30,413 nt of DNA from Kiritimatiellales bacterium (GTDB lineage: Bacteria > Verrucomicrobiota > Kiritimatiellia > Kiritimatiellales > Pontiellaceae). The stretch is from positions 1-30,413 of the forward strand of contig WFRA01000098.1 of assembly GCA_015486775.1 (NCBI GenBank), written 5' to 3'. The notes beneath the pieces were generated by a model that was not told where the DNA came from, did not search any database, and saw only the letters and a program-made list of their open reading frames with translations. This document shows positions 661 through 28,064 of this stretch, piece by piece. Within the stretch, counting starts at the first letter, position 1. The number at the start of each line of letters is the position of its first letter. Made by a program: the position numbers and the translations under genes.

Positions 661-675
661 TTCCAACCATTGGAT
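661..675. repeat. TTCCA-N5-TGGAA palindrome (one mismatch)
   Basis: TTCCA-ACCAT-TGGAT, one base short of the exact motif. It is an intergenic member of the dispersed palindrome family described in the findings. Confidence 0.5.
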
Positions 676-1058
676 TTTTTGTGCACCTTGTGCCTTTTCG
701 CGGCCACATTCCCGTTGGCCAGGCGTTCCCGGGCGGGCTTCGCAGGAAGGTAGGGCAATCCGTCCCGGTTGCCCAAGCAGGCGAGCGGCGGTGTGCCGAG
801 CCGGGGCTCGCGTTCCCGTTCCTGTGGGTAGACATTGCCATTTCCGATCAGGGCATTGTTGTCGCAAGCTCCAGCCTCGGTGAACCATTTTCGCTTCACT
901 CTATTAAACCGTTCATTTCATTCACTATTTCACTGCGTGAAATTATCTACGCTGTGCTTCGGCCTGCGGAAATTATCAATCGCGTTGCTTTTGGCGCGTG
1001 TAGTATTTTCCAGTGACTGAAAGTTCCAACCATGCAGAAAGGCAGCGAATCCGCACAG

Positions 1059-1089
1059 CCATCCAACCATCTACTATTCCATGCTCAAT
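1059..1089 (+). repeat. 31-bp direct repeat, copy 2
   Basis: Second copy of the repeat at 331-361, with one mismatch. The two copies bracket about 700 bp that contain no recognisable gene. Confidence 0.8.
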
Positions 1090-1115
1090 TGGTAGGATTG
1101 CGGATCACAACCGTA

Positions 1116-1170
1116 GCCTTGCGGATCGGATCATTGGATAAAAAGAGGAATGGATTTTTGGAGGAAAACC
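1116..1170 (+). repeat. GCCTTGC element, copy A
   Basis: About 55 bp beginning GCCTTGC, with a core GGATCATTGGATAAAA and the 3' block TTTTTGGAGGAAAA. It aligns over its whole length with 12206-12261, and its first two blocks align with the inverted copy at 1629-1678. It overlaps the 3' end of the antitoxin gene on the opposite strand, so it encodes that protein's last residues and stop codon. Confidence 0.75.
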
Positions 1171-1367
1171 TCGTCGGCTGGGGATGCCTTGATTTTCCCT
1201 GCGTCGAAGGCATCGATGCGGGATTCGATCTCGGTCGCCCACGCTTCGTCTGTTTTTGAATTCGGCGAGGGGTCGAAGCTGACAAAGAGACGTTCGATCA
1301 GTTCCGCGCGGTCAACCGGCGGCAATTCCAGTGCGGTTTCCATGATTTTTTCTGCCACAGCGGTCAT
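1131..1367 (-). CDS. Orphan addiction-module antitoxin (TIGR02574-like)
   Basis: A 78-residue protein starting at the ATG at 1367, chosen because AAGGAG lies seven bases upstream. The body resembles the small 'putative addiction module component' antitoxins. It has a helical N-terminal half with a PPVDRAELIERLF stretch, a tryptophan in the DEAWATEIESR segment, and the family-like ending KASPADEVF. Such proteins normally pair with a RelE/ParE-type toxin gene directly downstream. Here no toxin-sized frame follows on this strand. The final residues after EVF, and the TGA stop, are encoded within repeat element A, so the natural C-terminus and any toxin may have been lost when the repeat arrived. 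The alternative is a solitary functional regulator. Family assignment is fairly secure; activity is unknown. Confidence 0.7.
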   Translation of the reverse strand: MTAVAEKIMETALELPPVDRAELIERLFVSFDPSPNSKTDEAWATEIESRIDAFDAGKIKASPADEVFLQKSIPLFIQ

Positions 1368-1478
1368 TGTGTTTCTCCTTGGAGTTCGGGTGGAAGGTAG
1401 CACAGGGCAGGGGGAGGGGAAACCGAAAAGAAAAACCACAAGGCCGGATCCGCAATACCGATTGCGCTTGGATGGACA

Positions 1479-1511
1479 GCAGGCGTATGCGTAGGTTGAC
1501 GCGAACGAGCC
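1479..1511 (+). repeat. 33-bp repeat shared with window right end
   Basis: It contains GTATGCGTAGGTTGACGCGA exactly as found at 30358-30391, and the similarity continues a few bases on each side (GCAGG before, CGAGCC after). It is same-orientation, intergenic and of unknown function. Confidence 0.75.
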
Positions 1512-1628
1512 GACAGGCAACCTCTGCGTCGACTCTCCTGTGCGGCTCAAGACGAGGCGGAGCCTCATCCTACGACCGATTGCACTTGCGTGCGAAGCAG
1601 GGAAGGTTCGTCTGGAGGGTGATCTTTC

Positions 1629-1678
1629 TCCATTACTCCTTTTATCCAATGATCCAACCAACAGGGGAGCCGCAAGGC
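1629..1678 (-). repeat. GCCTTGC element, copy B
   Basis: Read on the minus strand it begins GCCTTGCGG eleven bases past the stop codon of the yggT-like gene. It then carries GGATCATTGGATAAAA and GGAGTAATGGA, matching copy A at about 24 of 27 positions in that core. It lacks the TTTTTGGAGGAAAA block of copies A and C. Confidence 0.7.
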
Positions 1679-1689
1679 TTGATTTCCCG

Positions 1690-1950
1690 CTACCGGAGAA
1701 TGGCGACGACGAGCCAGCGCACCGCCCCCACGGCGAAGTAGAGGAAGAGCGGGCTGAGATCGATGAGGGTTCCGCCGATGCGCGGGGCGACCAGCCAGCG
1801 GCGAATGGGCACCAGTGCGGGTTCGTAGAGCGCGGCGAGCCGGAGGCGGAGCGCATGGGCGGCCGGGTGCGCAATCCATGCGCAGAGGACATAGGCCAGC
1901 AGCCCCAGCTCGTAGAGGTTGAGCACCAGATTCACCAAACCCAAAAGCAT
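1690..1950 (-). CDS. YggT-family membrane protein
   Basis: An 86-residue hydrophobic protein of the YggT family. Two membrane segments are visible, at about residues 3-25 (LLGLVNLVLNLYELGLLAYV) and 66-85 (LSPLFLYFAVGAVRWLVVAI). Between them lies a polar stretch containing the family-typical proline/arginine segment around VPIRRWLV. The start at 1950 is supported by GAGG eight bases upstream. It lies 15 bases after the cbpA-like stop and is probably the last gene of the heat-shock operon. The molecular role of YggT proteins is not well established; links to osmotic stress and cell-division or envelope functions have been proposed. The pairing with chaperones suggests an envelope stress role, which is inference. 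Confidence 0.8.
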   Translation of the reverse strand: MLLGLVNLVLNLYELGLLAYVLCAWIAHPAAHALRLRLAALYEPALVPIRRWLVAPRIGGTLIDLSPLFLYFAVGAVRWLVVAILR

Positions 1951-1965
1951 TGTCCAACCTCTCTA

Positions 1966-2892
1966 TTATGCCTTTTTCCTGGCCAGCCCTTTCAGCTGCT
2001 CGTAGAGCCGCTTCTCCTCGGGCGAAAGGGTTTTCGGCACGGCGATTCGGACAACGGCATAGAGGTCGCCCCGCCCGCCGCCGGGCTTTTTCAGCCCCTT
2101 GCCGCGTAGCCGGAATTTCCTGCCCGAGGGCGTGCCGGGCGGGATCCGTAGCGAGGCTCTTCCGTCGATGAGCCGCAACCGGGCCGTCGTGCCCAGCACG
2201 GCCTCGGGCGGAGAGACGGGTACCTCCATTTCGAGGTCGGAACCGAGCACCTTGAACCGGGGGTGTGGCGCAATGTGGATGTGGATGAGCAGGTCGCCGT
2301 TGCGGCCCTGGTTGCGCAGGCGGAGTTTCGCGCCGTCGCGGGTGCCGGGCGGAATGTTCAGGTCGATGGTCTTCGAGGTTCCGTCTGCCGACTGGAGTTT
2401 GATGCGCTTTTTCCCGCCGAGGAACGCATCCTCCAGCGAGATGGTCAGGCTGGTTTCGTCGTGGGTCTTCCGCTGCGGGCGGGCACCGAAACCTTCCATG
2501 GATTGGAAGCCGCCGCCCCCGCCCATCGAGGTGCCGAAGATCGACTCGAAAAAGTCGCTGAAGCCCCCGCCTCCGGAAAAGCCGAAGCCCTGGCCTGCGC
2601 CGCCGTTCCCGCCAAATTCGAAATGGACGTTTTCCCAGCCGGGCGGCGGCGTGAAATCCTGACCCTGCTTCCAGTTGGCGCCGAGCTGGTCGTAGCGCTT
2701 GCGCTTTTCGGGGTCGCCGAGCACCTCGTAGGCCTCGGAGATTTCCTGGAAGCGCTCCTGCGCGGCCGGTGCCTTGTTCACGTCGGGGTGGTATTCCCGG
2801 GCGAGCTTGCGGTAGGCCTTTTTCACGGCCGCATCGTTGGCATCGCGGGCGACGCCGAGCACCTCGTAGTAGTCTTTGTATTGAACACTCAC
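1966..2892 (-). CDS. cbpA: CbpA/DnaJ-like J-domain co-chaperone
   Basis: A 308-residue J-domain protein that should stimulate DnaK ATPase activity and bind unfolded clients. The J domain spans residues 5-70 with the HPD tripeptide at 35-37. A Gly/Phe-rich linker follows (about 95-145), then two DnaJ C-terminal beta domains. There is no CxxCxGxG zinc-finger cluster, which separates it from the true DnaJ at 26073-27239 and makes it CbpA-type. I chose the GTG at 2892, giving [13 protein letters not shown], because AGGTGG lies just upstream and residues further upstream have no family counterpart; the spacing of about three bases is short. It sits between the small heat-shock genes and the YggT gene on the same strand. 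A TTCCA-N5-TGGAA palindrome lies inside its linker-coding region (2494-2508). Confidence 0.9.
2494..2508. repeat. TTCCA-N5-TGGAA palindrome in cbpA
   Basis: TTCCA-TGGAT-TGGAA, exact arms, with a flanking C-G pair extending the symmetry to 2493-2509. It lies within the Gly/Phe linker-coding part of the cbpA-like gene. Confidence 0.7.
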
Positions 2893-2917
2893 ATTCCACC
2901 TGCCCAGCCATGGGGGG

Positions 2918-2946
2918 CTCCGGCTTCCAACGATTGGAAGCCGGAG
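2918..2946. repeat. Extended palindrome between hsp20 and cbpA
   Basis: Perfect 13-bp arms CTCCGGCTTCCAA and TTGGAAGCCGGAG around a three-base centre. It contains the exact motif TTCCA-ACGAT-TGGAA at 2925-2939. It lies between the stop of the third hsp20 gene and the cbpA-like start, so in mRNA it would form a strong hairpin. There is no U-run after it, so it is not a typical terminator; it could protect a 3' end or tune expression of the downstream gene. Confidence 0.75.
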
Positions 2947-2955
2947 TTTCCGCAC

Positions 2956-3420
2956 CTAGTCCACACTCACCGGAATCCGTTTCCGATCCGCCTTGGCCCG
3001 CTCCGTCTTGGGGAGGGTCAGCGTCAGCACGCCCCGCTTGAACCGAGCCTCGACCTTTTCCTTGTCAACCTCCGCGGGGAGCGGAATCGTCCGGCCATAG
3101 CTGCCGTAGCTCATCTCGGAAACATGGTAGTTGCGTTTCCGGGTCTCCTTCTCCCGCTTCCGCTCGCCCCGGATGGTCAGCATGCCGTCTTCGAGCGCCA
3201 CCTCGATATCCTTCTCGTCCATGCCGGGCAGCTCGGCCCGCACGCGGATCTCGTCGTCGGTCTCGGAAACCTCGAACCCGCCGTCCCGATCCGGCCGCCG
3301 GCCGGGGCGGCCAAACCCGAGATAGGTGTCGAAAAGCTCATCGACCTCCCGGCGGAGTAGGCCGAAGGGGTTTTCGTCCTTCTCCGCCCGCCTTTTCCAA
3401 GGCATCCATTTTTCTTTCAT
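2956..3420 (-). CDS. Small heat-shock protein (Hsp20/IbpA family), third in tandem
   Basis: A 154-residue alpha-crystallin-type chaperone that should hold unfolding proteins in the cytoplasm until the DnaK system refolds them. The alpha-crystallin domain spans about residues 45-140. It has the family motif of a short helix followed by GVLTLTLPK, and a C-terminal I-P-V tail of the I-x-I/V type that links oligomers. The ATG at 3420 is preceded by AGGAGGT at a spacing of seven bases; a GTG nine bases earlier overlaps that site and is unlikely. The N-terminus is unusually basic and charged (KEKWMPWKRRAEKDE) compared with its two paralogues. It lies 26 bases after the stop of the second hsp20 gene. 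Confidence 0.9.
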   Translation of the reverse strand: MKEKWMPWKRRAEKDENPFGLLRREVDELFDTYLGFGRPGRRPDRDGGFEVSETDDEIRVRAELPGMDEKDIEVALEDGMLTIRGERKREKETRKRNYHVSEMSYGSYGRTIPLPAEVDKEKVEARFKRGVLTLTLPKTERAKADRKRIPVSVD

Positions 3421-3446
3421 GAAAATCACCTCCTTTCTCCGCTATG

Positions 3447-3848
3447 CTAGCCTCCGGTTGTGATTTCGATCTTGCGCGGCTTGGCCTGCTCGGCCTTCGG
3501 GAGTTCGATGTCCAGCACACCGTTGTGCAGCCGGGCGCGGATTTTTTCGCGGTCGACCTGCTGGGGGATGCTGAACCTCCGGCGGAAGACGCCGGTTTCG
3601 TATTCGCCCATCAGCAGATCCACCCCTTCCGGGCTTGCAGCGGCCTGCGTCCCGCTGATTTCGAGCTCCGCGTTGTCCAGCCGGATGTCGATCCGATCCT
3701 GCGCCACGCCGGGCATGTCGCAACGGACCAGGATGGCATCGTCCTTCTCGTAGATGTCGGTCGCCGGCACGAACACCTTCGCATCGCGCGTGGGTTCGGC
3801 TTTGTCCGATCCGGCTTTTTCCAGATTCTTTTCCTTGTTTTCCTTCAT
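3447..3848 (-). CDS. Small heat-shock protein (Hsp20/IbpA family), second in tandem
   Basis: A 133-residue Hsp20 protein. A charged, lysine-rich N-terminal leader of about 25 residues precedes the alpha-crystallin domain (about 28-120). The domain includes the conserved DMPGV segment and the GVLDIELPK motif, and an I-E-I tail follows. The ATG at 3848 lies seven bases after AGGAGGT; in-frame GTG codons immediately upstream fall inside or next to that site. The gene is 13 bases after the stop of the first hsp20 gene, so the two are almost certainly co-transcribed. It is the shortest of the three paralogues. Confidence 0.9.
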   Translation of the reverse strand: MKENKEKNLEKAGSDKAEPTRDAKVFVPATDIYEKDDAILVRCDMPGVAQDRIDIRLDNAELEISGTQAAASPEGVDLLMGEYETGVFRRRFSIPQQVDREKIRARLHNGVLDIELPKAEQAKPRKIEITTGG

Positions 3849-3861
3849 CTCCACCACCTCC

Positions 3862-4296
3862 TTATGACGCTTTGATTTCGATCCGCTTGGGTTTGGTCGC
3901 TTCCTGACGCGGCAGGACGATGCTCAGCACGCCGTCCTCGTATTTGGCGGAAACCTTGTCGTTCTCCACCGCAAAAGGCAGGCGCACCGTGCGCACAAAC
4001 GATCCAACCCCGCGCTCGTTGCGATGGCAAACCGCATCTTCCGCCGGCTTGTCGCTCTTGCGCTCGCCCTTGATGGTGAGCTGATTGTTCACCACGTTGA
4101 GGTCGATATCCTCGATCTGGAGACCCGGCAGCTCGGCATTGACCACCACCTGGTCGGAATTGCCCCACACGTTGAGGGCGGGGAAGCGGGAGATCGAAGT
4201 CCCGCCATCGTATCCGTCGAACAGACGGTTCATCTCCCTTTGCAGCGAACGGAGTTCGCCGAAGGGGCTCCATGTTCCTGTATCTGTCCAATACAT
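3862..4296 (-). CDS. Small heat-shock protein (Hsp20/IbpA family), first in tandem
   Basis: A 144-residue Hsp20 protein and the promoter-proximal member of the operon. The N-terminal segment MYWTDTGTWSPFGELRSLQ with following REMNRLFDGY is typical of bacterial class A small heat-shock proteins. The alpha-crystallin domain spans about residues 38-132 with an AELPGL segment and the GVLSIVLPR motif. The C-terminal I-E-I supplies the oligomer-linking tail. The start at 4296 is supported by AAGGAG nine bases upstream. Three diverged paralogues in a row suggest distinct oligomer types or hetero-oligomers, which is inference. Confidence 0.92.
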   Translation of the reverse strand: MYWTDTGTWSPFGELRSLQREMNRLFDGYDGGTSISRFPALNVWGNSDQVVVNAELPGLQIEDIDLNVVNNQLTIKGERKSDKPAEDAVCHRNERGVGSFVRTVRLPFAVENDKVSAKYEDGVLSIVLPRQEATKPKRIEIKAS

Positions 4297-4320
4297 GGTA
4301 TGTACTCCTTGTTGCTTCCG

Positions 4321-4339
4321 CCCTGCGCCCATCGCAGGG
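4321..4339 (-). promoter_or_regulatory. Leader hairpin upstream of hsp20
   Basis: Perfect 7-bp stem CCCTGCG/CGCAGGG with a five-base loop, 24 bases upstream of the hsp20 start codon. It would lie in the 5' leader of the mRNA. Small heat-shock genes in other bacteria often carry RNA thermometers in this position, but this hairpin does not visibly include the AAGGAG site, so a thermometer role is only a possibility. Confidence 0.35.
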
Positions 4340-4440
4340 AGGTGCCTTACGGCTTCGGTTGCCCTTAATCAAAAAGTATGCCATCTCGGTAAATCCCCAT
4401 TTCCCCTTTGTTTGCAGCTTTTTGTGAATATTGACGAGAA

Positions 4441-4495
4441 GCCTGTGCGGGAAAATATTTCACAGCATCTTGCGCCTGTGCGACATTTTTTCACA
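4441..4495. promoter_or_regulatory. Paired direct repeats, possible operator
   Basis: Two copies of GCCTGTGCG followed by an A/T-rich spacer and TTTCACA lie at 4441-4464 and 4474-4495, offset by 33 bp or about three helix turns. They sit about 145-200 bases above the first hsp20 start. The phasing suggests two sites for one DNA-binding protein; the protein is unknown. Confidence 0.45.
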
Positions 4496-4607
4496 CCCGT
4501 GGATGGAGAGGCAGAGGGCGCTTCGCTCCGAAACCAATAAAGCACTCGGGGAATCCGCGTGCATCGGGAGCGACAGAGCCGCAGGCGGGGCGGGGAAGCC
4601 GCCTCGG

Positions 4608-5993
4608 TCAGCTCCGGTTTTGCAGCGGATATTTGACGCCGAGGAGTTTCGAGACGGCCTTGTTGAACGTCTTGCGCTCTTCGCGGATAACCTGCCGCAC
4701 GGCCTGAGTGCGGAACTTGAAATAGTCCCAGTCGAGCCCCATCGGCGCGCCGAGGTGGGTCTTGAGCCGGATGGCTTCGGCGGGGTCGATGCTTTCCATC
4801 TCCTGGAGGTTTTCCTTCACGTGGTGATAGGCGTCGCGGAAGGGCATCCCTTCGCCCACAAGCTCCAGGGCGCGGTCGGTGGCGAAGACATCGGGCGAGA
4901 AGCCGTCGATTAGTTTTTGGCGGTTGACCTGGGTGGCCTTGACCATTGGCGCAAGGATGCGCAGGCAGGCGCGGGTGGTGGCAATCCCTTCCATGAAGAG
5001 CTCCTTGGCCTCCTGGAGGTCGCGGTTGTATCCGGTCGGCGAGCCCTTGACTAGGTCGTAGATGCCGAGCTCGGCGGCCTTGACGCGCGAGGCTTTGGCG
5101 CGGACGAGTTCGCAGACGTCCGGGTTCTGCTTCTGCGGCATGATGGAGCTGCCGGTGCAGAACTCGGCGGGGAGCTGGAAATAGTCGAACTCCGGCATGG
5201 TGAAGAGCATGAAGTCCTGCGCGAGGCGCGAGAGGGTCAGCATCGCCTGCGCCATGGCGCCGAGGACGATCGATTCCATTTTGCCGCGCCCGTTGTTGGC
5301 GTAGAGTACGTTGTGGGTGGGATAGGCAAAGCCGAGCAGATCGGAGACAAGCTGGCGGTCGATCGGTAGTGGCACGCCGTAGGAGGCGGCGGAGCCGAGC
5401 GGGCACTGGTCGTTCATTTCGTAGGCGTTGAGCAGACCGACGCAATCGTCGAGCAGGCTTTCCGCGTGGGCGGTTGCCCAGAGGCCGACGGATGATGGCA
5501 TCCCCGGCTGCATGTGCGTGCGTCCAACCATTGGAACCTTCTCGTGCTTCTTCCCGAAGGCCGCCAGCGCCGCCGCCAGCTCGGCGGCCTCTTCCAAGGT
5601 GTGGAGAATCTGCTCCTTGGCGTAGAGGCGCAGGTCGACGGCCACCTGGTCGTTGCGGCTACGGCAGGTATGGATTTTTTTGCCAAGGTCGCCCAGCTTT
5701 TTGGTGAGCGCGCGCTCGACGGCCAGGTGTACATCTTGGTCGGCCAGCTTGATGTTGAATTTGCCCTGCCGGGCAAGGTTGATGATTTCGACGAGCCCTT
5801 CGACCACCTGCTGCCGCTCGGTGGCGGTGATGAGCGCGGGCTTCACCGGCATTTTCGAGAGCATCGCGACGTGCGCGGCGGTGCCGATGCAGTCGACCTC
5901 GACGAGCGCCTGGTCGAGCTCCACATCGCGCCCGGCGGTGAAGGCGAGTGTTTCGGTGTTGATGGTTCCCACGGTGGTTTTTTTCTTTGCCAT
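4608..5993 (-). CDS. argH: Argininosuccinate lyase
   Basis: A 461-residue member of the fumarase/aspartase superfamily. It splits argininosuccinate into arginine and fumarate, the last step of arginine synthesis. The superfamily signature GSSIMPQKQNPD lies near residue 280 and holds the catalytic serine loop. The conserved T-H of the GRTHMQPG segment near residue 158 matches the general acid/base region, and CRSRNDQVAVDLRLY near residue 110 is the usual substrate-binding segment. Length matches the family (about 460). I chose the ATG at 5993 (MAKKKTTVG) because GAGGCAGG lies just upstream; the upstream in-frame extension looks non-coding. No other arginine genes are visible nearby. A near-exact TTCCA-N5-TGGAA palindrome lies inside the gene at 5523-5537. 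Confidence 0.95.
   Translation of the reverse strand: MAKKKTTVGTINTETLAFTAGRDVELDQALVEVDCIGTAAHVAMLSKMPVKPALITATERQQVVEGLVEIINLARQGKFNIKLADQDVHLAVERALTKKLGDLGKKIHTCRSRNDQVAVDLRLYAKEQILHTLEEAAELAAALAAFGKKHEKVPMVGRTHMQPGMPSSVGLWATAHAESLLDDCVGLLNAYEMNDQCPLGSAASYGVPLPIDRQLVSDLLGFAYPTHNVLYANNGRGKMESIVLGAMAQAMLTLSRLAQDFMLFTMPEFDYFQLPAEFCTGSSIMPQKQNPDVCELVRAKASRVKAAELGIYDLVKGSPTGYNRDLQEAKELFMEGIATTRACLRILAPMVKATQVNRQKLIDGFSPDVFATDRALELVGEGMPFRDAYHHVKENLQEMESIDPAEAIRLKTHLGAPMGLDWDYFKFRTQAVRQVIREERKTFNKAVSKLLGVKYPLQNRS
5523..5537. repeat. TTCCA-N5-TGGAA palindrome (one mismatch) in argH
   Basis: TCCA-ACCAT-TGGA symmetry within argH, extended as GTCCA-ACCAT-TGGAAC with one mismatch to the exact motif. 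It encodes part of the VPMVG residues just before the catalytic GRTHMQ segment. Confidence 0.5.
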
Positions 5994-6265
5994 GTTCCTG
6001 CCTCGGTAGATTGATCGTTGGTTCATACCTTCATTTGTCCCTCCGTTCCAGAGTTAATCCGAAAAATGGAGCCGGGGAAGCGGCCGGGTGCGAAGGTGTC
6101 CTGATGAAATGTGGGACTTCCCTTGCTCATGTTGTCCCCCTCCCTTCAACAGCTCTGGGTAGGCAATTTGAGTTGAAAGGTTCAAACTATTATGTTTTTT
6201 TGATATCCATCAGTGCATCGATGCCTCCGGTAGTGGCGGGCGATATAACAACAAGGGATTTGAAG

Positions 6266-9200
6266 ATGAAGAAAACAAGGGTTGTAAAATGGATTTTGGT
6301 TTTGGCTTTGGGCGGAGCGGCGCAGGCGAGGTCCATTTATGTGGATAAGGGGTCGATGAATCCAACGTCACCCTACACCAATGGAACGACAGCGGCGCAT
6401 ACGATCCAGGTGGCACTGGATGTTGCGGAGGATGGAGACGAGGTGCGGCTGAAAGCCGACACCTACACGCCCTCCGCCGAGCTGGTGATTACCAACGCCA
6501 TTTATCTGCGAGGTCCACTACTTGATCTGGAGCATGCGAAATATACCGTGATCAGTGGCGAAGGAAACCACCGCGTCTTGAACTTAGGCACCAATGCCTG
6601 CCAAGTGGTGGGTTTAACGATCAAAAATGGAAACGGTAGCGATGGCGGCGGAATCTACTGTGCAAATAACACCCCCCTCGTTTGGAATTGTGTGATCGAT
6701 CAAAACTCCGGGGGATCGGGCGGCGGAATGTATCGCGGAACAGCCAACGGCTGTATTTTCACCAACAACTCCGGTTATTACGGCGGGGCCACTCGCGATA
6801 CGGTTTTGGAATATTCTACGGTGGTCGACAACAAGGCCAATAATTGCGGAGGCGTCTACGGGGGCGCGGCATATAAGTGCAAGATTTTAAACAACCACGG
6901 CACCTATGCTGCGGGTGGCGTTTATAATAGTTCCATTACCAACTGCACGGTAATTGGAAATGTCTCCCCCTCGACCGGCGGCGGAATGTCTGGTGGCTCG
7001 GCGATTGGATCGGTCATTGCAGGAAACCACGCGGGAACCGAGGGGGGCGGAAGTTATAACTCCACGCTAATCCACTGCACGGTCACGGGAAACTCGGCGT
7101 TTACAAAGGGCGGCGGGGTGAATCGGGGAACCGTAAAAAATTCCATTGTCTGGAACAATACGGCCAGCGAAGGGAATAATATTCTCTATTCACAAGTTTA
7201 TGCCTCTTGCTCACCTGACCTTACAGCAGGGGAGAACGGCAACATTACTGACGACCCCCAACTGGTTTCCATCTCGCATCTTGGAACGGGCTCGCCTTGC
7301 ATGAATGCGGGCGATGCCGCCTATTCGGTGGGCTGGGACATCGATGGGCAGAGTTGGGACACCCCGCCATCGATGGGATGCGATGAGCGGTACGCAACTG
7401 TCACTGGAGACATGACTCCCTTCAACAATCTGCCCGAGCGTATTGTTACGGGGCAGGAAATTCATTTCCAGGCCTGGGTTGACGGAGCAACCACCATGAC
7501 GACGCTCGATTTTGGTGACGGAACCACCCTGACCAACTTTACAGAAACCACGCTCACGCACACTTGGACGAACGGAAACTACAATGTCATCCTAACCGGT
7601 TTTAATAGTGAAGCTCCGTATCGAACCTCCATCACCAATGTGGTCTACGCACGCACCGACGGCATAACCACGATCTATGTTTCCGACGCAACTGGAAACG
7701 ACAGCAACGACGGACAGAGCTGGGCGACTGCCAAGAAAACCATTCAGGCCGGTGCGAATGTGCAGGATTTTGTCGGCGGGCTGGTGCTGGTTTCCAACGG
7801 AACCTATTCCATCACCGCCGAACTATTTGTAGACAAACCGATCCGTATCCAAGGATTGGATGGCGCGGGAAACAGCATCGTGAAAGGCAACAACAATCAA
7901 CGCTGCTTCAACCTGCAAAACAGTTTCTGCATCCTGAAAGATTTAACGATCCGCGACGGCGGTGGATATGCCCAAGGCACCTCGGGTGGCGGCGCCATCT
8001 ACTGCAGCGGCCCCAACCCATTGGTAGACGGCTGCATCATCACCCAAAACAATACGTCCAACGGAGGCGGCGCGATGTGGCGCGGAACGGCCACCAACAG
8101 CACCTTTATTGCAAATACCGGCGGCAACGGTCCGGCGGGCATGCAGGCGGGCATCGCGATCGACTGTCTCTTTGAACATAATGTGAGTGGCAATGGTGCC
8201 GGGGGAATCCAGGAAAGCATCGCCACTCGTTGCATATTCAAAGAAAATGAGGGAACCGTCGGTGGTGGCGCACGGGACAGTCAGCTATCTGATTGCCAGC
8301 TTCTCTTCAATACATCCGACAACAATGGTGGAGGAATGTATGGTGGCACGGCGGGAAACTGTGTTTTCCGTGGCAACAAGTCACCTCAAAGCGGGGGAGG
8401 AACCTACAGCACCATCGCAACCCACTGCACCTATACCGCCAACACCGCAGCTCAGGCCGGTGGAGGAAGCTCCGGCGGAACGCTCGACCACTGCATTCTC
8501 TGGTACAACAGCACCATGAATGGAGCCGAAAATGTTTCCGGCGGAAGCGTGAGCTATTCCTGCGCGCCGGAGCTGGAGCATGGATCGGACGGCAACATCA
8601 CCAACAACCCGCAACTGGTTTCCGCCTCTCACATTTCACCGGACTCCCCCTGTGCAGGCTCCGGAACAATCCCGCGCGACACCTTCGACATCGATGGCGA
8701 AAATTGGCGCTCTGCTCCGGCGATGGGTTGTGATGAGCCGCGAATCCCCTATTCCACCGCCAATGTTTCTATCACCATTGACGGCCCCACCGACATTCCG
8801 GCTGGATACAAGGCCTTCTTCAGCGTCGATATCCAAGGCGCGTTCCACCACGACTACGTTGAGTTTGGCGATGGGCAGACTGCTATCAACACCGCGATTG
8901 TCCCTATTTATCACACGTGGATCACGCCCGGAACCTATGACATGGTGATTTCAACCTACGACCAAAACAACCAGCTTTTGGTTGCTGTCACCAACACCAT
9001 CACGGTTCGCGCATCCGACTTCAATGCAATCTATGTAGCCACCAACGGCAACGATTCCGCCGACGGGCGGAGCTGGGCGAACGCTAAACAGACCATTCAG
9101 GCCGGCATTGATGCGCAGGAATTCCCGGGTGGGCAGGTTGTGGTTTCCAATGGAGTTTATACGCTCACAGAAACCGTAAAAATCGATAAAGGCATTCAAC

Positions 9201-12199
9201 TCATTGGCCTTAATGGCGCAACCAACACCATCATTGATGCAGTCAACTTATACGGATTGAACTACCAGCACTCGCGCGGCATGGAGATCGGCGATGTCCA
9301 TTGCACGGTGGATGGCTTTACCCTTCAAAATGCCAACTTTTCCTGGACGGGAGGTGGCATCTTCTGCGACTACACCACCGCCCCCATCATTTCCAACTGT
9401 TGGATCATTGACAACAAATCCGGCACTGCGGGCGGTGCCTATGGTGGCACCTTTATTGACTGCACCTTCTCCAACAACACCGCCTCGGCCGGTGCTGCCG
9501 GAGGACTCCACTCCGGCAAGGCCATCCGTTGCTCCTTTACCGGAAATTATTCCCGCGACGGGGGCGGCGGCATGTATGCCGGAATCGCGACCGATTGCAC
9601 CTTCTCCAAAAATGAATCCAATGGTTCGGGTGCGGGCATGTATAAAGGCGAGGCCAACGACTGCATCTTCATTGAAAACGAATCCTATTATGGGGGTGGG
9701 GGCATGGCCGATGGCATCGCCAACGATTGCACCTTTATTAAAAACCAGACCGAATTTTCCGGTGGTGGCATGAGTGGTGGGACGGCGAATCGTTGTGCCT
9801 TCATCCAAAACCGATCCATCAATTACACAGGCGGCGGAATGAATAGCGGAACGGCCAACAGTTGCTACTTTACAGGGAACCGCGCCAATACTGACGGCGG
9901 TGCCACGAGCTACACCACCCTGAACAACTGCACCGTCACCGGAAATTCGGCCGGCACAAAAGCGGGCGGGTGCTATTCCGGATATGCAAACAATTCCATT
10001 GTCTGGAACAACACCGCCGAAGAGAGCGATAACGATCTCTTTTCCGCCAATCCAAAATTCACCTGCTCGCCCGATGCGCCGCACGGCACCGACGGCTGCA
10101 TCACCAACAATCCCCAGCTGGTTTCAGCTTCGCATATTGCCTCCACCTCCCCCTGCATCGGCGTGGGAAGAGCCGAGTATGCCACCGAAACGGACATCGA
10201 CGGCGAAGCATGGAACAACCCGCCCGCTATGGGATGCGACGAAATCGGCGCGACCCTCTCCGGCCCCATCGAAATGGCCTTTTATGGCCCGTCCCCCATT
10301 CGTAGCTCCACGGCAGGCGACTACATCGCGATCTTCGACGGGCAGCTCTCGAAAACCATTGTCGACTTTGGCCACGGCACGCCGCTCACCAACGCCATCG
10401 GCACCCTGAACCATCGATGGCCGGGTCCTGCCGCGCAAAACTACGATGTGGTTCTCACCGCCTTCAACGACGACTATCCGCTCGGAACCTCCTTCACCCA
10501 GACGGTGGAAGTGGTGGATAGCACCGCCGACCTCCACGTCCGCTACGATGGTTATGACGGCAACGACGGACTTAGCTGGACCAATGCCAAGCAGACGATT
10601 CAGGCGGCGATCGACGCGCAAAACACCTATAACGGGAAAATCTTGGTTGATGGATCGCTCTATCTCATTGGAAAAACAATTACGGTGGACAAGCCCATCC
10701 AGCTGATCGGCACCGATTCCGGCGATACGTATGGAGGCGGAAACATTGCCATTGTCGATGCCGGAAGTAGCAACCGCTGTTTTGACATCACCAGCAGTGA
10801 GGTAACCATTGAAAACTTTACCATCCAAAATGGGATGATGGGGCTTCAGAGCAATAACGATAACGCGGGTGCCGGCATTCGGTGCAAAACCACTGATCCT
10901 CGTATCTACAACTGCACCCTCAAAAACTGTACCGCCTATTACGGTGGAGCCATTCAAAAAGGTTCCCTTGTTTATTGCTCCCTCTCCAACAATGTTGCGA
11001 TCCAAGGTGGTGCGGTCTATCAAAGCAAGCTGGACGATTGCACCGTCTCCAGCAATTCGGCCACCTCTGGCGGGGCACTCTATAAGAGTTCGTTCGCAAC
11101 GGGATGCACCCTTTCGAACAACTATGCCTCCTCCCTGGGTGGCGGTGCCTACAACTCCACTCTGACCAATTGTACGCTAGCGGCCAACCAAGCCGACTCT
11201 CAAGGAGGCGGAGCGTATAACTGCACACTAGATTTCTGCACGATCACCAGCAATGCCGCCCCGTCTGCCGGGGGGGCTTTTGGAGGAACGGCCGACCGCT
11301 GCCGTTTCACCACGAACAACGCATCGGTCACCGATGGCGGCGGCATGTATTCAGGCTCCGCCCACAACTGCACCTTCCACTTCAACCGGGCCGAAGAAAA
11401 AGGCGGAGCAACCTATAGTACTACCCTACGCAATTGCACCGTGGTTGAAAACGGGGCATTTGATACGGGCGGCGCGTACGGCGGCTATATCTACAACTCC
11501 ATTATCTGGGACAACTTTGCATGGAGCAACGCCTTGAATGTGGCCGGAACCACTCCCCTGTATTCCTGCTATCCCGAAGCCGATCCCTCGGACAGCTATC
11601 ACCACAATATTACCAACAACCCATTGTTTGTCGCCTATGCCCCCGGAATGTTCTTCCGTGGTAGCGACTATTATCTTAGTTCGCTCTCCCCCTGCCTCAA
11701 TGTCGGCAACAACAGCTATGTTGAAACCGACCGTGACTTTAACGGCTGGGATCGGATCCTTTATGGCACCGTCGACATGGGTGCCAACGAAATGTATTTC
11801 TTTGCTTCCGACACCGACGGCGATGGAATGCCCGACGGATGGGAGCTCGAAAACTTTGGTGGAAGCACCAACGCCGTGGCCAGCGAAGATGCCGACTCCG
11901 ACACCTTCGACAACCTTTCCGAATATGTTGCCGGAACCCTTCCGCACGACGACACCTCCTACCTGCACATTGTCCAAAGCAGTTTTATGCCGGATGAAAA
12001 TGACCCTTCCATCACCAGCATCCATCTGGAATGGAGCCCCTCCGTCGAAGGCCGTATCTACGGGATCAGCTGGAGTACCAATCTCGTGGATGGTTTTCAG
12101 GATCGGGGCGATAGCTTCCCCTATCCCGCCGACAACATCACCATCGGAAACGACCTTCCCAACGCTTTTTATAAAATCAATGTTCGGCTGGATAACTAA
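6266..12199 (+). CDS. Giant secreted beta-helix/PKD modular protein
   Basis: I predict a 1977-residue exported protein. I chose the ATG at 6266 because it opens a signal peptide (MKKTRVVKWILVLALGGAAQA) and has AGGGA seven bases upstream; the longer open frame back to 5987 overlaps argH and looks non-coding. Four modules begin at about residues 24, 470, 922 and 1422. Each opens with an IYV…GNDSxDGxSWxxAKxTIQA-like segment (weaker in module 1) and continues as right-handed parallel beta-helix rungs rich in GGGM and N/D-C-x-F/V repeats. Modules 1-3 end in xNPQLVS…GCDE, resembling choice-of-anchor Q domains. PKD-like domains with (D/E)FGDG or DFGHG motifs separate the modules (from about 390, 832 and 1335). 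The C-terminus has a calcium-binding-type DTDGDGMPD segment (1849) and a terminal beta domain. A cell-surface, polysaccharide-binding or adhesive role is likely, but no catalytic site is recognisable. Confidence 0.9.
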   Translation: MKKTRVVKWILVLALGGAAQARSIYVDKGSMNPTSPYTNGTTAAHTIQVALDVAEDGDEVRLKADTYTPSAELVITNAIYLRGPLLDLEHAKYTVISGEGNHRVLNLGTNACQVVGLTIKNGNGSDGGGIYCANNTPLVWNCVIDQNSGGSGGGMYRGTANGCIFTNNSGYYGGATRDTVLEYSTVVDNKANNCGGVYGGAAYKCKILNNHGTYAAGGVYNSSITNCTVIGNVSPSTGGGMSGGSAIGSVIAGNHAGTEGGGSYNSTLIHCTVTGNSAFTKGGGVNRGTVKNSIVWNNTASEGNNILYSQVYASCSPDLTAGENGNITDDPQLVSISHLGTGSPCMNAGDAAYSVGWDIDGQSWDTPPSMGCDERYATVTGDMTPFNNLPERIVTGQEIHFQAWVDGATTMTTLDFGDGTTLTNFTETTLTHTWTNGNYNVILTGFNSEAPYRTSITNVVYARTDGITTIYVSDATGNDSNDGQSWATAKKTIQAGANVQDFVGGLVLVSNGTYSITAELFVDKPIRIQGLDGAGNSIVKGNNNQRCFNLQNSFCILKDLTIRDGGGYAQGTSGGGAIYCSGPNPLVDGCIITQNNTSNGGGAMWRGTATNSTFIANTGGNGPAGMQAGIAIDCLFEHNVSGNGAGGIQESIATRCIFKENEGTVGGGARDSQLSDCQLLFNTSDNNGGGMYGGTAGNCVFRGNKSPQSGGGTYSTIATHCTYTANTAAQAGGGSSGGTLDHCILWYNSTMNGAENVSGGSVSYSCAPELEHGSDGNITNNPQLVSASHISPDSPCAGSGTIPRDTFDIDGENWRSAPAMGCDEPRIPYSTANVSITIDGPTDIPAGYKAFFSVDIQGAFHHDYVEFGDGQTAINTAIVPIYHTWITPGTYDMVISTYDQNNQLLVAVTNTITVRASDFNAIYVATNGNDSADGRSWANAKQTIQAGIDAQEFPGGQVVVSNGVYTLTETVKIDKGIQLIGLNGATNTIIDAVNLYGLNYQHSRGMEIGDVHCTVDGFTLQNANFSWTGGGIFCDYTTAPIISNCWIIDNKSGTAGGAYGGTFIDCTFSNNTASAGAAGGLHSGKAIRCSFTGNYSRDGGGGMYAGIATDCTFSKNESNGSGAGMYKGEANDCIFIENESYYGGGGMADGIANDCTFIKNQTEFSGGGMSGGTANRCAFIQNRSINYTGGGMNSGTANSCYFTGNRANTDGGATSYTTLNNCTVTGNSAGTKAGGCYSGYANNSIVWNNTAEESDNDLFSANPKFTCSPDAPHGTDGCITNNPQLVSASHIASTSPCIGVGRAEYATETDIDGEAWNNPPAMGCDEIGATLSGPIEMAFYGPSPIRSSTAGDYIAIFDGQLSKTIVDFGHGTPLTNAIGTLNHRWPGPAAQNYDVVLTAFNDDYPLGTSFTQTVEVVDSTADLHVRYDGYDGNDGLSWTNAKQTIQAAIDAQNTYNGKILVDGSLYLIGKTITVDKPIQLIGTDSGDTYGGGNIAIVDAGSSNRCFDITSSEVTIENFTIQNGMMGLQSNNDNAGAGIRCKTTDPRIYNCTLKNCTAYYGGAIQKGSLVYCSLSNNVAIQGGAVYQSKLDDCTVSSNSATSGGALYKSSFATGCTLSNNYASSLGGGAYNSTLTNCTLAANQADSQGGGAYNCTLDFCTITSNAAPSAGGAFGGTADRCRFTTNNASVTDGGGMYSGSAHNCTFHFNRAEEKGGATYSTTLRNCTVVENGAFDTGGAYGGYIYNSIIWDNFAWSNALNVAGTTPLYSCYPEADPSDSYHHNITNNPLFVAYAPGMFFRGSDYYLSSLSPCLNVGNNSYVETDRDFNGWDRILYGTVDMGANEMYFFASDTDGDGMPDGWELENFGGSTNAVASEDADSDTFDNLSEYVAGTLPHDDTSYLHIVQSSFMPDENDPSITSIHLEWSPSVEGRIYGISWSTNLVDGFQDRGDSFPYPADNITIGNDLPNAFYKINVRLDN

Positions 12200-12205
12200 T
12201 CCAGA

Positions 12206-12361: not shown

Positions 12362-12386
12362 CGGGGTTCCAGTGCCTGGAACCCCG
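12362..12386. repeat. Extended TTCCA-N5-TGGAA palindrome
   Basis: Perfect 11-bp arms CGGGGTTCCAG and CTGGAACCCCG around TGC. The core motif is TTCCA-GTGCC-TGGAA. Its outer arm bases differ entirely from those of the palindrome at 2918-2946 yet remain complementary. Confidence 0.75.
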
Positions 12387-12389
12387 TGG

Positions 12390-12404
12390 TTCCAACGGCT
12401 GGAA
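12390..12404. repeat. TTCCA-N5-TGGAA palindrome
   Basis: TTCCA-ACGGC-TGGAA, exact arms, only eight bases after the preceding palindrome's core. The outer bases GG and ACC pair if one A is bulged. Confidence 0.7.
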
Positions 12405-16272: not shown

Positions 16273-16290
16273 GAAGGGTTGGACAATACA

Positions 16291-16818: not shown

Positions 16819-16854
16819 CAGTTTTATTAAATTGGAAGTCTAAGGAGAAATACA

Positions 16855-17277
<423 letters not shown>

Positions 17278-17306
17278 CCCTCTGTCTGCTTGAATTCCAA
17301 TTAAGC

Positions 17307-17368
17307 GCCATCCCGCAAGGGGTGGCATGTAGAGATTGTTCCCCTTTGAGTTTTTCAGAGGGGAACAA
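17307..17368 (+). promoter_or_regulatory. Paired hairpins between rplL and rpoB
   Basis: A short hairpin GCCATCCC-GCAA-GGGGTGGC (17307-17326, one G-T wobble) is followed by a perfect 10-bp stem TTGTTCCCCT/AGGGGAACAA with a 13-base loop (17336-17368). There is no T-run downstream. In many bacteria this gap holds an attenuator or RNase III site that lowers rpoBC relative to ribosomal genes; the same role is inferred here. Confidence 0.65.
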
Positions 17369-17400
17369 GCGTGTTTCCAATATAAACCTGAAGGTGCTGG

Positions 17401-21162
<3,762 letters not shown>

Positions 21163-21209
21163 TCCCCGCTTGTTCGGCAAACCATATTTAGATTGCAGGA
21201 GGAACTTCG

Positions 21210-25391
<4,182 letters not shown>

Positions 25392-25471
25392 TCCGCCTTT
25401 GCGCAGAGCGCTTTTCCCCTTTCGCCTCGCACCGCGTCCATCGGCAGGGCGTGGCGCGGTGCGGCGTATTT

Positions 25472-25488
25472 TTTCCAAGCTCTGGAAA
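25472..25488. repeat. TTCCA-N5-TGGAA palindrome before grpE
   Basis: TTTCCA-AGCTC-TGGAAA, exact arms plus a flanking T-A pair. It lies in the 114-base gap between rpoC and grpE, 18 bases before the grpE start, and would be in the grpE leader if the two are co-transcribed. Confidence 0.7.
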
Positions 25489-25505
25489 CAACGAGGATTC
25501 TGGCT

Positions 25506-26069
25506 ATGGCAAAGAAAGACAAGACCCCGGAGGAAGAGATCGGCGAAGAGGTTGCCGAGGAGGCTCTTCCCGACACCGAAACCATCGAAGAGGAGATGGT
25601 CGAACCGGCCGAAGAGGAGGACGAGTCGCTGCGCGACCAGTTTGTCCGCCTTCAGGCCGACTTCGCCAACTTCCGCAACCGCACCCAGCGCGAGCGGCTG
25701 GAGCTCTACCAGCGCGCCAACGAGGATCTCCTGCTCGAAATCCTCCCCGTGCTCGACCACTACGAACTCGGCTTGCAGACCGCCGAACAGCAGGAGACCG
25801 ATCCCGCGGTGCTCGACGGCTTCAAACTGGTCTACGACCAGTTCCAGAACGTGCTCGACAAGTTCAACCTCAAGCCGATCGATGCCGTGGGCGAGCAGTT
25901 CGACCCCCACCGGCACGAGGCGCTCACCCACATGCCGTCGGACGAATACCCCGCCGAGGTTTGCTCGAACCAGATCCGCCGGGGCTACCTCTTCGGCGAC
26001 AAGCTCCTGCGTCCCGCCCAGGTCGTCGTCTCCTCCGGCCCGCCCGAAGCCGCAGGGAACGGGGAATAG
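25506..26069 (+). CDS. grpE: Nucleotide exchange factor GrpE
   Basis: A 187-residue protein that releases ADP from DnaK. An acidic, disordered N-terminus (to about residue 40) is followed by the long dimer helix (RLQADFANFRNRTQRERLEL onward). The beta domain then carries FDPHRHEALTHM and the family ending RGYLFGDKLLRPAQVVVS. GAGG lies nine bases before the ATG. dnaJ begins three bases after its stop. Confidence 0.96.
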   Translation: MAKKDKTPEEEIGEEVAEEALPDTETIEEEMVEPAEEEDESLRDQFVRLQADFANFRNRTQRERLELYQRANEDLLLEILPVLDHYELGLQTAEQQETDPAVLDGFKLVYDQFQNVLDKFNLKPIDAVGEQFDPHRHEALTHMPSDEYPAEVCSNQIRRGYLFGDKLLRPAQVVVSSGPPEAAGNGE

Positions 26070-26072
26070 GTT

Positions 26073-27239
26073 ATGGCCGAAAAGCGCGACTACTACGAAA
26101 TTCTCGGGGTTTCAAAAACGGCCTCGGCGGACGAGATCAAAAAGGCCTACCGCAAGGTGGCCATGAAGTTCCACCCCGACCGCAACCCCGGCGATGCCGC
26201 CGCCGAGGAGAGCTTCAAGGAGGCCTCCGAGGCCTACGAGGTTTTGAGCGATGCCGACAAAAAGGCGCGCTACGACCAGTTCGGCCACCAGGCCTTTGCG
26301 CCGGGTGGCGGATTCGGTGGCGGATTCGGTGGTGGGTTCCACGATGCCTCTGATATTTTCGAGCAGGTCTTCGGCGGCGGATTCAACATCAACGATCTCT
26401 TTGGTGGGGGCGGCGGGCGCCGCCGCCGCAACGGCCCGGCGCGCGGTTCCGACCTGCGCTACGACCTGGATGTGGATTTCGAGGAAGCCGCGCTCGGCTC
26501 GCACCGCACCATTACCCTGCCCGTCAGCGAACCGTGCGACCACTGCAAGGGCAGCGGCGCGCAGCCGGGTACCTCCAAGCAAACCTGCCCAACTTGCCGT
26601 GGTCAGGGTCAGGTGCAGGCTGGCGGCGGATTCATCCAGTTTTCCCAGACCTGCCCCACCTGCGGCGGCGCGGGCGAAACCATCTCCACCCCCTGCGGTG
26701 CCTGCAACGGCGCGGGTAGCATCAAGCGGCGCCAAAAGCTCAAGCTGCGGATTCCGGCGGGGGTTGAATCCGGCTCGCGCCAGCGGCTCCCCGGCAAGGG
26801 CGAGGCCGGCATGCGCGGCGGACCGCCCGGCGACCTCTTCATTGTCTTCCACGTGCGCGACCACGACTTCTTCAAGCGCAGCGACCTCGATATCTACTGC
26901 GAAGTCCCCGTGCCCTTCCACATCGCCATGCTCGGCGGCGAGATCGAGGTGCCCACCATCCACGGCGGCGCCAAGCTCAAGATTCCATCGGGAACCCAGA
27001 GTGGCAAGATATACCGCCTGCGTGGGCAGGGCATAGCCGACGCCGCCCACGGCGGCGGCAAGGGCGACCAGAACGTCATGGTCGAGATCGAAGTGCCTTC
27101 CCGCCTCTCCGGCAAGGAGAAAAAGGCGATGAAGGAGCTGTGCGACCAGCTCCACGACAACCACTTCGAGCTTTCCGCCAAAATGAAGAAGACCGCCCAG
27201 AAATTCTACGAGCGCAAGCGCAAGCTCGAAGCGGAGTAG
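26073..27239 (+). CDS. dnaJ: Chaperone DnaJ
   Basis: A 388-residue type I J-protein that delivers substrates to DnaK and stimulates its ATPase. The J domain is residues 1-70 with HPD at 34-36. A Gly/Phe region (about 75-120) with GGGFGGGFG repeats follows. The zinc domain with four CxxCxGxG-type motifs runs from about 155 to 217, and C-terminal substrate-binding domains follow. It is three bases downstream of grpE, so the two are co-transcribed; dnaK is not in the window. It is distinct from the zinc-less CbpA-type protein at 1966-2892. Confidence 0.97.
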   Translation: MAEKRDYYEILGVSKTASADEIKKAYRKVAMKFHPDRNPGDAAAEESFKEASEAYEVLSDADKKARYDQFGHQAFAPGGGFGGGFGGGFHDASDIFEQVFGGGFNINDLFGGGGGRRRRNGPARGSDLRYDLDVDFEEAALGSHRTITLPVSEPCDHCKGSGAQPGTSKQTCPTCRGQGQVQAGGGFIQFSQTCPTCGGAGETISTPCGACNGAGSIKRRQKLKLRIPAGVESGSRQRLPGKGEAGMRGGPPGDLFIVFHVRDHDFFKRSDLDIYCEVPVPFHIAMLGGEIEVPTIHGGAKLKIPSGTQSGKIYRLRGQGIADAAHGGGKGDQNVMVEIEVPSRLSGKEKKAMKELCDQLHDNHFELSAKMKKTAQKFYERKRKLEAE

Positions 27240-27348
27240 GGACGGGACTGGATCGGTGGATTGCTGGATGAAGGGATTAGGGGCAAGGAGTTACTCGTCT
27301 TTCCCTCCCAATAATCCAACAATCCCTCTATCCAATAATCCATTTAGT
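27240..27348. repeat. GGATnnTTGGA-type repeat cluster after dnaJ
   Basis: Beginning right after the dnaJ stop, this spacer contains GGATCGGTGGATTGCTGGAT on the plus strand. Toward rsmE, the minus strand reads GGATTATTGGATAGAGGG and then TTGTTGGATTATTGGG. The units resemble the core of the GCCTTGC elements and form an imperfect inverted arrangement. No terminator is evident. Confidence 0.5.
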
Positions 27349-27350
27349 TC

Positions 27351-28064
27351 ATGAGAATCAATTCGCTAGTCGAAGCCGGTGGGCTGGAGAAGGAACTGGT
27401 GGTTCTTCCTCCGGAGGAGTCGCACCATCTCGCGCGGGTGCTGCGCGTCCAGCCCGGCCAGGAAATAACCCTCTTCGACGGACTCGGCGGCGTGGCCGAA
27501 GCAACCGTCGAAACCGTCTCCAAGACCGCCGTCGCAGCGCGGGTTTCCAAGCGCTGGAAAGTCCCAAGGCCCAGAATCGAAATCGACCTGATCCAAGCCG
27601 TCCCCAAGCCCGACCGCTGGGAGCTCGTGCTTCAAAAAGCCGTCGAGCTCGGTGCAACCACCATCCGGCCAATCCTCACCCGACACACCGAATCCAGACC
27701 CAACCCCAAAAAGCAGGCACGCTGGAAAAAGATCGTCCTCAACGCCGCGCAGCAGTGCGAAGTCCGCTGGCTGCCCGACCTCCAACCTTTGGAAAAATTC
27801 GATGCCGTTCTTCCAACCCTTGGAAGCTACGACCTCGTATTGATCGGCTCGCTCTACGACGGGGCAAAGCCCTTCCGCGAGGTTCCGATGGCTGGAAAAA
27901 AGCGCGTGGCGCTCCTGATCGGCCCCGAAGGCGACTTTTCCCAAGAGGAAGTGGATGCCGCCGTTCAGGCCGGCGCCGTCCCCGTCAGCTTCGGCGACCG
28001 CATCCTCCGGACGGAAACCGCCGCCATCTTCGGCCTCGCCGTCCTCGCTTACGAGTTACTGTAG
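27351..28064 (+). CDS. rsmE: 16S rRNA m3U1498 methyltransferase RsmE
   Basis: A 237-residue SPOUT-class methyltransferase acting on U1498 of 16S rRNA with S-adenosylmethionine. The N-terminal PUA-like domain contains SHHLARVLRVQPGQEITLFDG. The knotted catalytic domain contains QKAVELGAT, IGPEGDFS (about 189-196) and the trefoil-knot segment GDRILRTETAA (about 216-226). Length is typical. No strong ribosome site precedes the ATG. Four TTCCA-N5-TGGAA palindromes lie inside the gene in all three phases, apparently in variable surface positions rather than motifs. Confidence 0.93.
   Translation: MRINSLVEAGGLEKELVVLPPEESHHLARVLRVQPGQEITLFDGLGGVAEATVETVSKTAVAARVSKRWKVPRPRIEIDLIQAVPKPDRWELVLQKAVELGATTIRPILTRHTESRPNPKKQARWKKIVLNAAQQCEVRWLPDLQPLEKFDAVLPTLGSYDLVLIGSLYDGAKPFREVPMAGKKRVALLIGPEGDFSQEEVDAAVQAGAVPVSFGDRILRTETAAIFGLAVLAYELL
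27544..27560. repeat. TTCCA-N5-TGGAA palindrome in rsmE (1)
   Basis: TTTCCA-AGCGC-TGGAAA, exact arms plus an outer T-A pair. The codons read V-S-K-R-W-K. Confidence 0.7.
27780..27794. repeat. TTCCA-N5-TGGAA palindrome in rsmE (2, one mismatch)
   Basis: CTCCA-ACCTT-TGGAA, encoding L-Q-P-L-E, in a different phase from copy 1. Confidence 0.5.
27810..27826. repeat. TTCCA-N5-TGGAA palindrome in rsmE (3)
   Basis: CTTCCA-ACCCT-TGGAAG, exact arms plus an outer C-G pair, encoding L-P-T-L-G-S in the third phase. It is only 15 bases from the end of copy 2. Confidence 0.7.
27884..27898. repeat. TTCCA-N5-TGGAA palindrome in rsmE (4, one mismatch)
   Basis: TTCCG-ATGGC-TGGAA, encoding V-P-M-A-G-K in the same phase as copy 1. 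Confidence 0.45.

Follow-up and report, generated by a model that had tools for sequence, protein, structure and literature searches.

The window analysed here, a stretch of 30,413 nucleotides from a Pontiella-like draft genome (Kiritimatiellales, Pontiellaceae), carries an argH-like Lyase_1 gene, a PKD-domain open reading frame (ORF) of 2070 amino acids (5987-12199), tuf, rpoB, rpoC and rsmE, the last of which encodes an RNA methyltransferase. Two chaperone clusters lie close to tuf-rpoBC: four adjacent genes (1966-4384), one DnaJ-like and three for Hsp20, and grpE-dnaJ after rpoC. Scattered through these genes and the spaces between them are copies of the palindrome TTCCA-N5-TGGAA, which is the subject of this work (Table 1). 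With at most one mismatch the word occurs 21 times (9 exact and 12 one-mismatch copies), whereas 100 dinucleotide shuffles of the window gave a mean of 1.07 and a maximum of 3 such matches. Five of the exact sites are clearly coding (2494, 7141, 9994, 27545 and 27811), three are intergenic (12367, 12390 and 25473), and the site at 2925 marks the very beginning of the DnaJ-like ORF or stands slightly upstream of its true start.

The palindrome had been pointed out in an earlier note on this DNA. All seven exact copies listed there were recovered when the window was rescanned, and two had been overlooked, at 7141 and 9994; as both are inside the PKD ORF, the statement that the beta-helix gene contained none was wrong. 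The one-mismatch copies at 661 and 27780 were correctly placed, those given as 5523 and 27884 were shifted by one base (5522 and 27883), and the absence of the word from tuf to rpoC holds for exact copies, but not for one-mismatch sites, three of which were found in rpoB and rpoC (19410, 21813 and 24921). The two sites in the PKD ORF are identical and stand in partly similar contexts, which suggests an internal repeat.

Table 1. Copies of TTCCA-N5-TGGAA with at most one mismatch in the window
Feature	Position	Strand	Context
Exact site	2494..2508	.	inside DnaJ/CbpA-like gene
Exact site, arms reaching 13 bp	2925..2939	.	adjoins hsp20 gene
Exact site	7141..7155	.	in 2070-aa PKD ORF
Exact site	9994..10008	.	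in 2070-aa PKD ORF
Exact site	12367..12381	.	intergenic, upstream of tRNA-Thr and tuf; neighbour site 23 bp away
Exact site	12390..12404	.	intergenic
Exact site	25473..25487	.	between rpoC and grpE
Exact site	27545..27559	.	rsmE; homologous position occupied in G159 and G227
Exact site	27811..27825	.	rsmE; common to G159 and G227; site also in G081 (other family, f2)
One-mismatch site	661..675	.
One-mismatch site	1008..1022	.
One-mismatch site	4794..4808	.	Lyase_1 (argH-like) gene
One-mismatch site	5522..5536	.	Lyase_1 (argH-like) gene
One-mismatch site	5592..5606	.	Lyase_1 (argH-like) gene
One-mismatch site	9391..9405	.	PKD ORF
One-mismatch site	19410..19424	.	rpoB
One-mismatch site	21813..21827	.	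rpoC
One-mismatch site	24921..24935	.	rpoC
One-mismatch site	27780..27794	.	31 bp (three turns) from 27811
One-mismatch site	27883..27897	.	rsmE; exact here in G227, G247 and G292
One-mismatch site	28727..28741	.	DUF1961 gene

The strong over-representation claimed for the window was borne out at the scale of the genome. The draft from which the window derives (G000; 2.5 Mb, 72% complete) contains the word 676 times and the reversed pattern twice, and in 137 kb of it 50 copies were counted where 0.55 were expected from k-mer counts. Across 28 genomes of the genus, whose members include strains B1224, B12219 and B12227 and the cultured Pontiella sulfatireligans F21 (G303, 829 copies), the number of copies ranged from 5 to 2297 and that of the reversed control from 0 to 9. 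When 288 genomes of the phylum were scanned, at least 20 copies were found in 38 of the 97 members of the class Kiritimatiellia, and none of the 191 genomes outside the class had more than 30. Copy number was patchy even inside genera (163 vs 27, 179 vs 18 and 271 vs 29). By simple arithmetic the richest genomes have about one site per 2.4-4 kb, and the word is abundant in coding and non-coding DNA alike, as is characteristic of HIP1-like repeats. Spread by viruses was considered and rejected: in the whole viral collection 116 stretches hold TTTTCCARNSNYTGGAAAA, and among the 80 of these that were listed, 79 have a single copy and one has a pair 31 bp apart.

Base counts yielded the consensus T-TTCCA-R-N-S-N-Y-TGGAA-A. 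The five-base gap is strict: among gaps of 0-11 bases it accounted for 50 of 54 matches in G000, 93 of 106 in G035 and 77 of 89 in G081, a genome of another family that we take to be Tichowtungia, and gaps of 0-4 and 6-11 were scarce. The first inner base is mainly A or G, while G or C occupies the centre of 174 of 186 sites in Pontiella and of 76 of 77 in G081.

Such symmetry could belong to an RNA or DNA hairpin (a terminator, a REP-like element or a mobile palindrome), and this had been the leading idea of the earlier note, which relied on complementary bases next to the arms. In the window this outward pairing is present in six of the seven copies listed there and in six of nine if all exact copies are included, and two copies do have long perfect arms, 11 bp at 12367 and 13 bp at 2925. 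Flanks were compared with shuffles in five Pontiella genomes rich in the motif (186 sites together) and in G081 (77 sites). In Pontiella the first outward pair was formed in 69 sites (63.9 in shuffles), p 0.05 was reached at none of the 12 outward positions, the inner R/Y positions were paired in 85 sites (84.4 in shuffles), and positions +6/+8 were paired less often than expected (33 vs 45.6). In G081 the inner R/Y pair was at expectation (48 vs 50.3), and two of the 12 outward positions, -2 and -3, were slightly above the shuffles (33 vs 26.2 and 28 vs 20.2 of 77; p 0.03-0.05, uncorrected). Because the flanks of the 186 Pontiella sites show no excess of pairing, the covariation seen in the window is most likely due to chance, and the proposed selection for a hairpin lost its basis in this genus by the very criterion that the earlier note had set. 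In Pontiella neither inner nor flanking bases covary as the stem of a REP element or mobile palindrome should, the only Rfam matches in the window are two tRNAs, and the sites in rsmE arose without insertion (see below). The hairpin is rejected for Pontiella, and overall we regard it as exceedingly improbable. On balance, the symmetry is the one expected where a homodimer recognises duplex DNA, the two half-sites being separated by one turn of the helix.

How individual sites arise could be seen in rsmE. A codon alignment of 20 orthologues showed that the sites at 27545 and 27811 had been created by single-base changes in ordinary homologous codons. No insertion was found at either place among the 20 sequences; in G003 three codons are absent at the second. 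Both sites are common to G000, G159 and G227, and the second position is also a site in G081. With sites gained by substitution and with N5 varied, the earlier suggestion of a mobile palindrome could not be upheld, and in Pontiella and G081 no flank is conserved beyond 1-3 bases. A true mobile palindrome, found in G121, looked quite different. It emerged from an unbiased screen of small samples for dialects of the word, as TCAGA-N5-TCTGA (5 vs 0.03 in the screen), with 184 copies in this 3.1-Mb genome and at most 14 in any of the other 287. It was rejected as a dialect because it comes in few fixed versions, mostly paired about 1.4-1.5 kb apart: it lies in both termini of an insertion sequence some 1.5 kb long, present in up to about 90 copies (L398-L427). 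AAGGT-N5-ACCTT, with 55 copies in the genome of G061, was likewise discarded as a repeat, the two copies read (L397 and L430) being an identical 17-mer that is apparently part of a longer repeat.

Sites were also compared between relatives. Orthologous site-pairs were retained exactly in 40 of 87 cases among motif-rich Pontiella, in 5 of 19 against the intermediate G303 and in 30 of 207 against other relatives (both directions were counted, so the pairs are not independent, and the last group contains poor as well as intermediate genomes). The fixed positions had an identity, compared with that of the flanks, of 0.877 vs 0.73-0.75, 0.811 vs 0.72-0.73 and 0.698 vs 0.68-0.69, respectively. Sites are kept best where they are abundant, i.e. 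among motif-rich relatives.

In-place gain and retention, patchy copy number between close relatives and a scatter through coding and intergenic DNA are also what could be expected of a signal for the uptake or transfer of DNA, built up through biased recombination. DNA uptake sequences (DUS) and uptake signal sequences (USS) are short asymmetric words dispersed in high copy, and in copy number and dispersal the word resembles them. It differs from them in being a palindrome with dimer symmetry, and it forms helically phased arrays (see below), which an uptake signal does not predict. Nor was any tie seen to the presence of ComEC, which was found in 78 of 80 class genomes whether motif-rich or motif-poor; one of the two genomes without it, G118, is motif-rich (418 copies). 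For this and the Lrp/AsnC gene tests below, 80 of the 97 class genomes were used, the 17 dropped all having at most 18 copies. ComEC being near-universal, its presence says little about competence, and the uptake signal proposed earlier is unsupported; we consider it improbable. In 23 of the 80 genomes a second, mostly longer ORF (about 730-1370 amino acids) matches the ComEC/Competence family.

The spacing of neighbouring sites proved to be helical in G081. In a sample of 800 kb, sites with at most one mismatch were separated by 22, 31-32, 42, 52-53, 63, 83 bp and so on. Pairs at 15-130 bp (n = 61) gave R = 0.83 at 10.5 bp; pairs at 15-70 bp numbered 45 against 6.3 under a Poisson expectation and gave R = 0.90 at 10.5 bp, with a best period of 10.4 (Rayleigh p-values assume independence of the pairs). 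The DNA between paired sites appeared unrelated by eye. Matches to a pair pattern, defined as two exact sites 17-47 bp apart, were numerous in G012 (749), G090 (338), G065 (290), G148 (248), G095 (135), G032 (122), G162 (114), G151 (99), G047 (91) and G118 (78), ranged from 24 to 149 in six Pontiella genomes, and amounted to merely 6 in G003 and 2 in G029, while a control pair pattern had no match in any of the 18 genomes. Among the matches listed for genomes of other families, a spacing of 31/32 bp was found in 49 of 50 for G065 (of 290 pairs) and in 25 of 25 for G012 (of 749). In Pontiella the same peak comprised 24 of the 75 pairs listed, compared with 4.8 for an even spread; these were all 40 pairs of G035, all 24 of G000 and 11 of the 132 of G227, with none contributed by G159, G247 and G303.

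Longer arrays were read at nine loci, five in G090 and four in G148, which we picked from the listed pairs. All five G090 arrays follow one plan, 22-31-(31)n-30-22 bp with 5-7 sites (in one the first step is 21), and all four G148 arrays consist of 4-6 sites spaced 31-32 bp. In the G090 arrays (L432-L436) TTCCAACCATTGGAA is both the first and the last-but-one site, and A/T-rich stretches are common to the spacers; this composite element may be directional. In array genomes A/T-rich turns were seen at distances of 8-10 and some 20-24 bp from the centre. They would suit bent DNA but were not counted, as the T flank of the adjacent site accounts for most of the outer rise.

The position of sites relative to genes, as called by our simple hexamer-based ORF script, bears on whether the word is the operator of an ordinary global transcription regulator, whose promoter arrays would run a large regulon and leave the scattered single sites of Pontiella as by-products. 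G012 looks like such a case: in 60 kb with 19 sites, densities per kb were 4.6 in divergent, 3.1 in tandem and 0.65 in convergent intergenic DNA, against 0.09 in coding DNA. Of the eight clusters that were read, in G012 and G162, four stop some 13-27 bases short of a predicted start codon, and behind one G090 array a promoter-like TTGACA...TAGGGT can be made out by eye. The pooled sites of G081, G227, G035 and G000 argue the other way, since 343 of 485 exact sites fall within predicted genes, and sites are more closely packed in convergent intergenic DNA (1.18 per kb) than in divergent (0.73), tandem (0.64) or coding DNA (0.22); G227 alone has the opposite order of divergent and convergent (1.50 vs 0.95 per kb). 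Most clusters of at least three sites are in predicted coding DNA. The genes scanned beside clusters (10 proteins) were unrelated to one another, and the search beside clusters brought up no autoregulated binder. Moreover, 2297 sites are far beyond any known regulon. Taking both sides together, we think a global regulator rather unlikely.

A further explanation is that a DNA methyltransferase recognises the word, whose abundance would be maintained because it serves as an epigenetic mark, as has been proposed for HIP1. The inner CCANNNNNTGG matches the PflMI site. HIP1 offers a precedent of iterated palindromes with which orphan methyltransferases are associated (PMC4390886). Phased arrays, clusters and the R-N-S-N-Y preference do not follow from methylation, and we hold this explanation to be highly improbable.

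We favour, with a probability of roughly 0.6, the interpretation that these 15 bp serve as operator for a chromosome-wide, homodimeric, sequence-specific DNA-binding protein whose dimers cooperate when their sites are on the same face of the helix, giving architecture to the nucleoid; among the suggestions of the earlier note, a binding site for a dimeric nucleoid protein was the best. The protein would occupy hundreds to thousands of chromosomal positions, each dimer reading TTCCAR on either side of the G/C centre. Neighbouring dimers would cooperate at two, three, four or more turns, three being preferred. From a dimer that prefers neighbours two, three or four turns away we infer contact through an oligomer, which could bend, loop or wrap the DNA. 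The likely outcome would be local looping or wrapping, i.e. a nucleoid architecture encoded in the sequence, with regulation of nearby genes where arrays adjoin them. More tentatively, the sites of some Kiritimatiellia may constitute a sequence-encoded chromatin, in which an octamer wraps or loops DNA at fixed places, in and between genes, at up to about 2300 near-identical, partly helix-phased sites.

Several observations weigh against an operator of this kind. Phasing was weak in the stretches sampled from Pontiella (120 pairs, R = 0.15, p 0.06 at 10.5 bp), G227 and G035 were flat in this respect, and sites in these stretches were clustered with no clear phase, which we count against a uniform mechanism. 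In the comparison with other relatives, too, the fixed positions (0.698) exceeded the inner ones (0.51-0.66), so that the contrast with motif-rich genomes is one of degree. Judged by their exact-site densities, neither Pontiella nor G081 favours promoters in general. Finally, no binder was found: the presence of an Lrp/AsnC gene does not track the motif in the 80 class genomes or in the 28 of the genus, only one of 27 lrp ORFs read, that of G095, is preceded by an exact site at 200 bp or less, as autoregulation would require, and the G/C centre is not the AT-rich one described for Lrp sites. The 27 ORFs came from 30 loci, of which one yielded no ORF and two a neighbouring gene.

The Lrp/AsnC gene, usually one per Kiritimatiellia genome, encodes in the genome of the window a product related to solved Lrp structures, and in G093, the sole genome checked by Pfam, it adjoins an aminotransferase gene. 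It was present in all 38 genomes with at least 20 copies; among the 42 motif-poor genomes, 35 contain it (Fisher p 0.012, with no correction for kinship). Within the genus it was detected in 23 of 28 genomes, including all 14 of good quality at any copy number; the five drafts lacking it are 59-89% complete, and three of them have 168-241 copies. The resident Lrp/AsnC protein is thus not supported as the binder.

Literature searches among open-licence PMC papers retrieved no report of the word, and in the main text of two papers on Pontiella species (PMC7356697 and PMC10880615) both 'palindrom' and 'motif' occur 0 times. In the literature searched, then, there is no description of this dimer site, which some Kiritimatiellia repeat to very high numbers and several of these phase with the helix. 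If the operator interpretation is correct, there is a bacterial lineage in which the sequence itself fixes where an architectural protein of the chromosome sits, at the density of the richest genomes given above. Sequence-encoded chromatin, gained and lost inside one genus, would give bacteria an equivalent of positioned nucleosomes. As the word has spread and vanished among close relatives, the evolution of such a nucleoid code would be testable in motif-rich and motif-poor sister species. P. sulfatireligans F21 is available as a cultured, motif-bearing relative.

Among known systems HIP1 of cyanobacteria is similar in being a palindrome of very high copy number, patchy among relatives and of unsettled function; it is an ungapped 8-mer linked to methyltransferases, whereas the present word is a gapped 5-5-5 dimer site that forms helically phased arrays. 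The matS sites of MatP and the SlmA and ParB-type sites are short palindromes for a dimeric chromosome protein, and matS shares the R-N-Y centre. These systems have tens of sites in defined chromosome regions, in contrast to the up to 2297, phased, described here. REP elements and an 18-nt palindrome of Caldithrix abyssi (38 exact copies with a strand preference; PMC5317091) are likewise dispersed, prefer intergenic DNA and are present between convergent genes; in Pontiella stem covariation is absent and most of the sampled sites are coding.

The closest parallel is with arrays of the Lrp/AsnC family (BarR, FL11, AsnC, Ss-LrpB and Escherichia coli Lrp), in which palindromic dimer sites are clustered on one face of the helix. 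According to PMC2995911, sites of this family form same-face clusters two or three turns apart and have an AT-rich centre. BarR has 15-bp sites with spacers of 15-17 bp, and DNA wraps around its octamer (PMC10201364); by our arithmetic these spacers correspond to 30-32 bp from centre to centre, which the paper describes as two turns, and spacers of 27-29 bp also occur. As in G093, the BarR gene adjoins an aminotransferase gene. The word shares with these operators the short palindromic dimer site and the clustering on one face at two or three turns, the latter weakly in Pontiella. It differs in that hundreds to thousands of near-exact sites replace a few degenerate ones, in its G/C centre, and in the lack of correspondence between the local Lrp/AsnC gene and the motif. 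By analogy, the arrays would work like an Lrp array rather than be one, and an Lrp/AsnC-type octamer is the best working model for the protein's mode of action.

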